Shown: positions 89-27,957 of the stretch, one piece after another
Numbering within the stretch: position 1 is the first letter of the stretch
How the letters are laid out: each line of letters starts with the position of its first letter
Source: Rhodospirillales bacterium
Lineage (GTDB): Bacteria; Pseudomonadota; Alphaproteobacteria; ATCC43930; CGMCC-115725
Assembly (NCBI GenBank): GCA_028288725.1
Contig: JAQGIC010000005.1
Span: forward strand, 1 to 64,000
DNA: 64,000 bases
Direction of reading: 5' to 3'
Translations under genes and position numbers: made by a program
Notes under the pieces: generated by a model
Database searches by the model: none
What the model was told of the DNA's origin: nothing
The model's input: the letters and a program-made list of their open reading frames with translations, nothing else

Positions 89-424
89 TTAAATCACGCT
101 CGCCTTTAGCGCCGCCCGCCAGTGGGCCAGGCGCTGCTTCGCCGTCGCCTGGCGGACGAAGGCCAGCGCCTCTTCGGGCAGCCGCTCCAGCTCTTCGAAT
201 ACGAAATTATCCGCGCCCAGGGCGTTCCAGGCTGCTTGCAGGCTGCGGTGCGGCGCCGTGCCCAGCTTCAATCCGAACCATAGGCGGTTCTGAATGGTGC
301 CGAGGTCCGGCGCCTGCCCGACCCAGGTCTCACCGGTCGACCCGCAGCGCACGGCATAGATGCCGGCGACCGCCTTGCGCTCCTTGTAGGCCGCGACCGC
401 GGCCTTTCTGTCGATGGTCTTCAT
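89..424 (-). CDS. GIY-YIG nuclease-like small protein
   Basis: A 111-residue protein with a GIY-YIG-like core: AGIYAVRCG near residues 20-28, then TWVGQAPDL about 12 residues later in place of the usual YVG/YIG strand, followed by an Arg-containing helix. GIY-YIG domains are usually metal-dependent phosphodiesterases. This one is a minimal single-domain protein, so activity and substrate are unknown. It is divergent from the DUF2239 gene at 527, with a shared 102-bp promoter region containing a perfect inverted repeat, which suggests the pair is co-regulated. The start codon has no strong Shine-Dalgarno sequence. A repair, defence or regulatory role cannot be chosen from sequence alone. Confidence 0.7.
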   Translation of the reverse strand: MKTIDRKAAVAAYKERKAVAGIYAVRCGSTGETWVGQAPDLGTIQNRLWFGLKLGTAPHRSLQAAWNALGADNFVFEELERLPEEALAFVRQATAKQRLAHWRAALKASVI

Positions 425-449
425 CGCCCGCCCCGCAGTTTCGAAGTCG

Positions 450-502
450 CTATTTATACCCGGATTGAATTGACTGCAATATTTTTATCCGGGTATAAAT
501 AG
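450..502. promoter_or_regulatory. Perfect 15-bp inverted repeat over a divergent promoter pair
   Basis: CTATTTATACCCGGA (450-464) and its exact reverse complement TCCGGGTATAAATAG (488-502) are separated by 23 bp. For the rightward gene, TTGACT (470-475) and TATAAA (494-499) form a sigma70-type promoter with an 18-bp spacer, so the right arm covers the -10 box. By symmetry the left arm carries TATAAA for the leftward gene. The arm centres are 38 bp apart, between 3.5 and 4 helical turns. This is probably a dimeric repressor operator or a pair of mirror-image promoters. No regulator gene is adjacent. Confidence 0.7.
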
Positions 503-526
503 TGCCGAACCCTGGAGAGCCGCCCG

Positions 527-1075
527 ATGTCAGACGCCCCGTCCTACACCGCCTTCGATGGCCACATGCTGCTCGCGACCGGCGCGCCGATCGACGTCGC
601 GCTCGCGGTAAAGGCGGCGATCGAGCGCGGCGCCGTCGGCCCCGTCCTCACATTCGACGATGCGACCGGCCGCGTCGTGGATCTGGACCTGCACGGCTCG
701 GCCCTGGATATCGCGGCGCGCCTCGGCGACCCGGTCCCGCGCGGGCGCGGGCGGCCCAAGCTGGGCGTGACACCCCGCGAGGTGACGCTGCTGCCGCGCC
801 ATTGGGATTGGCTGGCGGCGCAGCCCGGCGGCGCCTCGGTCACGCTGCGGCGCCTGATCGACGAGGCCCGACGCGCCGACGGCGGCCAAAGCCAAAGCCG
901 GGCCGCCCGTGAAACCGCTTACCGCTTCATGTCGGCGATGGCCGGCGACCTGCCCGGCTTCGAGGAGGCGACGCGGGCGCTGTTCGCCGGCGACCGGCAG
1001 CCCTTCGAGCAGCACTGCGCCGGCTGGCCGCCGGATCTGCGCGCCCATACGCTCAAGCTGGCCGGAACATTCTAG
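527..1075 (+). CDS. DUF2239 family protein
   Basis: A 182-residue soluble protein that matches my memory of the DUF2239 family. The N-terminus has YTAFDGHMLLATG, then FDDATGRVVDLDL near residues 42-54, then a basic GRGRPKLGV segment and PREVTLLPRHWDWL. The GRGRPKLGV stretch resembles an AT-hook-like basic motif, so nucleic-acid contact is possible but unproven. GGAG lies about nine bases before the ATG. Family function is unknown. It is divergent from the GIY-YIG gene behind a shared inverted-repeat promoter. Its TAG stop lies inside the conserved edge of palindromic element B. Confidence 0.8.
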   Translation: MSDAPSYTAFDGHMLLATGAPIDVALAVKAAIERGAVGPVLTFDDATGRVVDLDLHGSALDIAARLGDPVPRGRGRPKLGVTPREVTLLPRHWDWLAAQPGGASVTLRRLIDEARRADGGQSQSRAARETAYRFMSAMAGDLPGFEEATRALFAGDRQPFEQHCAGWPPDLRAHTLKLAGTF

Positions 1076-27807: not shown

Positions 27808-27957
27808 ACTGTTGACGAATAACTGCTTCAACTTTCTTGTCGTCATTCCCGCGGAGGCGGGAATCCAGAGTGGCAGAGATCCATCGCTTGCTCTGGATTC
27901 CCGCTTTCGCGGGAATGACGAAACAGAAGCAATGACGCACTTATTTTTGGACAACCC
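27808..27957. repeat. REP/MITE-like palindrome of the ATTCCCGC..GCGGGAAT type
   Basis: CGTCATTCCCGC (27841-27852) and GCGGGAATGACG (27909-27920) are outer inverted arms; inside them GCGGGAATCCAGAG pairs with CTCTGGATTCCCGC. Such repeats are widespread in proteobacteria. Weakly similar ends (GTTGACGAATAA at about 27812 and, inverted, GTTGTCCAAAAATAA near 27955) suggest a miniature mobile element of ~150 bp. It lies between convergent genes. A 79-residue open frame over it is spurious. Confidence 0.75.

Follow-up and report, generated by a model that had tools for sequence, protein, structure and literature searches.

Ribbon-helix-helix (RHH) repressors such as MetJ, CopG, and ParD/VapB bind short palindromic boxes in multiples, are built from a beta-strand and two helices, and regulate themselves. 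In arrangements of the TetR/TetA or MarR style, a self-controlled repressor and a divergent effector share one operator region. Here we describe a locus with likenesses to both. It lies in a window of 64,000 nucleotides, which is the whole stretch of DNA that we analysed, from contig JAQGIC010000005.1 of a Rhodospirillales bacterium. Our comparisons make it very probable that DUF2239, one of the two proteins encoded at this locus, regulates genes, a role in which it had not been recognised before. More specifically, we think it likely that DUF2239 is an autoregulatory transcription factor that has its own operator and represses itself and a few partner genes. A literature search on DUF2239, COG3644, and the operator motif found nothing relevant.

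The gene for a small GIY-YIG domain protein (111 amino acids; positions 89-424, minus strand) and the gene for DUF2239 (182 amino acids; 527-1075, plus strand) are divergent, and the 102 bp between them hold a perfect inverted repeat. The initial annotation of this DNA had described a 15-bp repeat. The repeat is real and perfect, but its arms are 16 bp each (450-465 and 487-502), 100% complementary and 21 bp apart, and they are not featureless. Each arm holds a 10-bp near-palindrome, TAYCCGGRTA, whose CCGG cores are 29 bp apart; the core in the left arm, or operator site 1, is TACCCGGATT at 457-466, with its motif kept in relatives, and the core in the right arm, or site 2, is TATCCGGGTA at 486-495. 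Among the window's perfect repeats with a loop of up to 60 bp, this one ranks second in length, and six shuffled versions of the window contained no perfect short-loop repeat of more than 13 bp. The arms frame a TTGACT and overlap both -10 boxes, just as the initial annotation had it. On the minus strand, a -10-like TATAAA for the GIY-YIG gene lies within the left arm (453-458). On the plus strand, TTGACT (470-475) and the TATAAA that overlaps site 2 (494-499), with a spacer of 18 bp, are likely the -35 and -10 boxes of the DUF2239 promoter. (A sigma-70 scan missed this promoter because the scan demands a T at position 6 of the -10 box.)

Downstream of DUF2239 there are two palindromes and then a convergent gene for a Lrp-type regulator. 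The palindromes, at 1082-1118 (12 bp arms) and 1131-1169 (18 bp arms, 3-nt loop), are likely a terminator or a dispersed element. Elsewhere in the window, an intergenic region at 27840-27921 has nested 14-bp inverted repeats (GTCATTCCCGCGGAGGCGGGAATCCAGAG ... CTCTGGATTCCCGCTTTCGCGGGAATGAC) that look like a dispersed palindromic or MITE-like element, in a single copy in the window.

Both the gene pair and the repeat are conserved in relatives. Starting from relatives of the GIY-YIG protein at 37 loci, we searched 38 genomes for DUF2239: the genome of the window, its sister species, and 36 genomes reached through GIY-YIG loci. DUF2239 was present in 36 of the 38, mostly as the divergent neighbour of GIY-YIG, and in the sister species as well the GIY-YIG orthologue adjoins DUF2239. 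Caulobacter vibrioides also carries DUF2239. An independent draw of 385 alphaproteobacterial genomes contained DUF2239 in 27, the GIY-YIG family in 18, and both in 16 (P = 2e-19, Fisher exact test), and 14 of the 28 DUF2239 loci in this draw had a divergent GIY-YIG neighbour. So, the adjacency is conserved, and the idea in the initial annotation of a divergent pair under one shared operator over both -10 boxes is borne out. Co-occurrence is not obligate: 16 of the 27 genomes with DUF2239 have the GIY-YIG gene, and two genomes have GIY-YIG and no DUF2239.

Nearly every DUF2239 gene has two TAYCCGGRTA sites upstream, mostly 28-29 bp apart. In the typical operator, TTGAC lies between the sites, site 1 is just upstream of the -35 box (in nearly all loci), and site 2 lies over the -10 box; in an alignment of 39 operators, the TTG of the -35 box is invariant. 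The operator's sequence, its spacing, and its position relative to the start codon are kept across phyla. We propose that DUF2239 binds both sites, one flanking its own -35 box and one overlapping its own -10 box, with each near-palindrome probably occupied by a single dimer. In the window, the two sites would also cover the divergent GIY-YIG promoter, so that DUF2239 would repress both genes, and a signal, possibly detected through the protein's N- or C-terminal domain, would release the repression. That DUF2239 represses rather than activates is something we infer purely from where the sites lie. DUF2239 might instead be an activator, or it might repress GIY-YIG only and not itself. Activators also use positions just upstream of the -35 box, such as that of site 1. 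However, site 2 overlaps the -10 box, and with a -35 box (TTGAC) so near to consensus, an activator should not be needed, so we consider these readings unlikely.

If DUF2239 is the regulator, rather than just a target, then the operator should go wherever DUF2239 goes, and for the most part it does. As training data for weight matrices we took 19 loci from our initial set (L016-L052 together with the window), almost every one of them beside GIY-YIG, and we scored other DUF2239 upstream regions against a cut-off at the 99.9% quantile of shuffled upstream regions. Of these held-out regions, 31 of 35 scored above the cut-off, including 21 of the 23 without a GIY-YIG neighbour, among them loci from Deinococcota, Bacillota, and Burkholderiales. 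The other four (L091, L099, L103, and L152) were under the threshold, some with just one clear site. The operator occurs with DUF2239 where GIY-YIG is not a neighbour, and it extends to further phyla and classes, in Deinococcus, Paenibacillus, Burkholderia, Cupriavidus, Comamonas, and Eleftheria, while Acinetobacter has a divergent form. Ten contigs from IMG/VR that are classed as viral (L140-L149) also encode DUF2239, and in several of them just one TAYCCGGRTA site is present; they may represent host sequence or genes that viruses really do carry.

We also built an operator model, R1, from 39 sequences, and ran it against the 385 genomes. Strong sites (E ≤ 1e-5) were found in 19 of the 27 genomes with DUF2239 and in 0 of the 358 without it (P = 3e-26, Fisher exact test). 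At E ≤ 0.01, the 358 genomes had 6 weak matches, where about 4 are expected. Because some of the sequences behind R1 and the Fisher table come from the tested genomes themselves, what is informative is the zero among the other genomes and the near lack of further sites within genomes; neither this zero (0 of 358) nor the held-out test has that fault. Most genomes have their operator only, or mainly, at DUF2239. This is also true of the genome of the window: R1 matches at 452-500 (47.6 bits, E = 7.4e-12) and at no other place.

Other candidate sites in this genome were set aside. An operator-like TATCCGGATATAAATA (L005, G000:C65:12224-12239) precedes a VapB-like/PIN-like gene pair and scores as a lone site; it was taken either as a chance match or as the antitoxin's own operator. 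(A repeated ATATCCGAATATCCG sequence is found near it.) For a site at C126:942, no gene was seen at a suitable distance. A search of 60 genomes for the exact double-CCGG pattern gave mostly chance matches in coding DNA, not above the control, and R1 was used instead.

The operator also occurs at GIY-YIG genes whose genomes encode DUF2239 somewhere else. We found such unlinked targets in Nitrospirillum (L037 and L041), Azospirillum sp. B4 (L039), a genome from the Sphingomonadales (L038), and two other genomes (L250 in G129 and L260 in G118). On the DUF2239 side of the pairs in Nitrospirillum and Azospirillum sp. B4 (L063, L066, and L067), there is at least one site each, and in the Sphingomonadales genome, too, both genes carry the operator. 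No operator was found upstream of GIY-YIG genes in genomes that lack DUF2239 (L049, L053, L261, and the broken L262). In other words, the repeat is conserved, but not as an element of the two-gene pair, as the initial annotation had viewed it: it follows DUF2239, with or without GIY-YIG. Because the operator is found with DUF2239 across phyla, whether or not GIY-YIG is nearby, and is missing from genomes that lack this gene, DUF2239 itself is the strongest candidate for the regulator, and direct binding of the operator by DUF2239 is what these comparisons suggest.

The initial annotation proposed a dimeric repressor encoded elsewhere, with DUF2239 as merely one of its targets. A repressor is probably right, and the symmetrical operator that covers both promoters agrees with this proposal, as does the lack of any recognised DNA-binding domain in DUF2239 in Pfam. 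Its "elsewhere" is hard to square with an operator that accompanies DUF2239 in three phyla, on chromosomes as well as on plasmids, has no strong match in the 358 genomes without DUF2239, and in most genomes has DUF2239 as its only or main place. A foreign regulator would need to travel along unseen each time, and we give this explanation little credence. (A third regulator that constantly travels with DUF2239 is a slim possibility.) We found nothing that points to induction by stress or DNA damage, which had also been suggested.

Can DUF2239 bind DNA? The protein matches PF09998 over its full length (E = 4.9e-75; 251.8 bits, with a cut-off of 25). In alignments, its most conserved stretch is RGRPKLGVxxREVTLLPRHW(D/E)WLxxQxGGASxxLR(R/K)LV. 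This begins with the AT-hook-like segment that the initial annotation had correctly picked out, RGRP at residues 74-77 (746-757, plus strand), whose GRP is invariant (alignments A1 and A2). Residues 84-117 (776-877, plus strand) are a candidate DNA-binding segment, given their conservation, the AlphaFold2 model, and a model of the fragment. In the AlphaFold2 prediction (mean pLDDT of 86.6), REVTLLP is extended and is followed by helices at 90-97 and 102-117; the N- and C-terminal parts are well predicted, and pLDDT is below 50 around residues 75-83. These are monomer models, and the strands of an RHH would pair only in a dimer. From these models, it is plausible that residues 84-117 form an RHH unit behind the AT-hook-like RGRP. 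This order of segments would fit the operator, with an RHH dimer on each palindrome and with RGRP inserted into the minor groove where the flanks are A/T-rich.

Searches for similarity to known RHH proteins were negative. No RHH family was among the Pfam matches of 18 DUF2239 fragments at E ≤ 10, and neither Foldseek nor VIA-align found a match to the RHH fold for full-length or fragment models. Aligning DUF2239 to local RHH_1 proteins with hhalign gave a score of 13.1, which is not clearly above the null (95th percentile of 12.3 and maximum of 15.5). A likeness of the N-terminal part to the Shewanella peptidase 3NJF (E = 0.43) was taken as chance. In Acinetobacter, the segment reads REITLQKKHW and the operator reads ACCCTGATA/ACCCCGATA, so both differ, as would be expected of a segment that recognises the CCGG core (a single example).

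The other protein of the pair appears to have the fold that it was named for. The GIY-YIG open reading frame had no match in Pfam on its own, but the family profile matches the catalytic domain of I-TevI (E = 1.2e-7 for PDB 1LN0 and 1.8e-7 for 1MK0), so the name is right. The likeness extends over about 85 residues and includes the GIY...W(V/I)G motifs. Unlike I-TevI, the window's protein has no DNA-binding tail, and the aligned counterparts of I-TevI's catalytic R27 and metal-binding E75 are I44 and L99, non-conserved hydrophobic positions that are not Arg or Glu in the family. Instead, the family conserves R47, E77, E80, and W102. Nuclease activity is doubtful because the family does not keep R27 and E75 where they would align, and the residues that it does conserve suggest a divergent or non-catalytic role. 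A library of defence systems gave only weak GIY-YIG/homing endonuclease matches at the locus.

Two small genes, one encoding a nuclease-like fold and the other an autoregulated partner that resembles a DNA-binding protein, could also make up a toxin-antitoxin-like module, with the GIY-YIG protein as toxin and DUF2239 as antitoxin. We consider this very unlikely: besides the missing catalytic residues, the genes are divergent, half of the DUF2239 loci in the even sample lack a nearby GIY-YIG, some pairs are unlinked, and GIY-YIG persists without DUF2239 (L049 and L261). As for the repeat being a chance or structural palindrome with no regulatory function, perfect palindromes do mark terminators as well (such as the one at 1131-1169), but this is refuted by the conservation of sequence, spacing, and start-codon position across phyla, and we give it virtually no chance.

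If DUF2239 is an autoregulatory repressor, then its other targets may hint at its role. Additional operators precede a gene for an alpha/beta hydrolase in Phyllobacterium (L219) and in three congeneric genomes (L220-L222, Tistrella); the hydrolase's position in one of the genomes (G336:C2) is the same as in the Tistrella mobilis record NC_017957.2. At 54-58% identity, a member of this hydrolase family is encoded by the last gene of a Paenibacillus plasmid operon, DUF2239-DUF1330-hydrolase, and in Novosphingobium, Mangrovicella, and others the family adjoins DUF2239 or GIY-YIG. The middle gene of this operon encodes a protein that we call DUF1330-like from the plasmid annotation only; it has no match in Pfam at E ≤ 0.001. 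Across 72,556 plasmid records it appears three times, always directly after DUF2239, and in the sister species, too, a DUF1330-like gene follows DUF2239 (L016 in G014). The Paenibacillus operon, with its esterase-like last gene (L151, NZ_LC597664.1 49308-51358), adjoins tet(L), and its plasmid is mobilizable.

The hydrolase resembles EstT/EstX macrolide esterases by profile. Its best E value against the NCBIfam models for macrolide esterases is 9e-58 (2e-44 for the EstT model and 6e-32 for EstX), and it matches the solved structure of EstT with E = 2e-38. However, its best score of 195.9 bits is below the equivalog cut-off of 420, and because all of its scores are far below curated cut-offs, we view it as a relative of these enzymes and not a member. 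The best explanation is that the GIY-YIG protein, the DUF1330-like protein, and the Est-like alpha/beta hydrolase are a small set of targets and putative effectors of DUF2239, which would control them in operons or in trans. A bolder idea, which we hold only tentatively and which may well be wrong, is that DUF2239 proteins form a new ligand-sensing repressor family that spread horizontally over several phyla, that their small regulon serves to detoxify, or to respond to, one particular ester or lactone compound, and that the degenerate GIY-YIG protein acts without the usual active site.

Overall, a widespread protein family would gain a testable function together with its DNA target, and a first regulon would bring in three further gene families about which little is known, one of them related to antibiotic esterases. 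It also appears that comparative genomics alone can link an operator to its regulator. Like MetJ, CopG, ParD, and VapB, DUF2239 has multiple short palindromes over promoter elements, a modelled order of an extended segment and two helices, and predicted autoregulation. It differs from them in having no detectable match to an RHH profile, a helix A shorter by roughly one turn, additional domains at the N and C termini, and the RGRP segment. As in systems of the TetR/TetA or MarR style, the regulator and a divergent effector have a common operator region, but DUF2239 belongs to neither family, its targets are also in trans, and the effectors vary between genomes.
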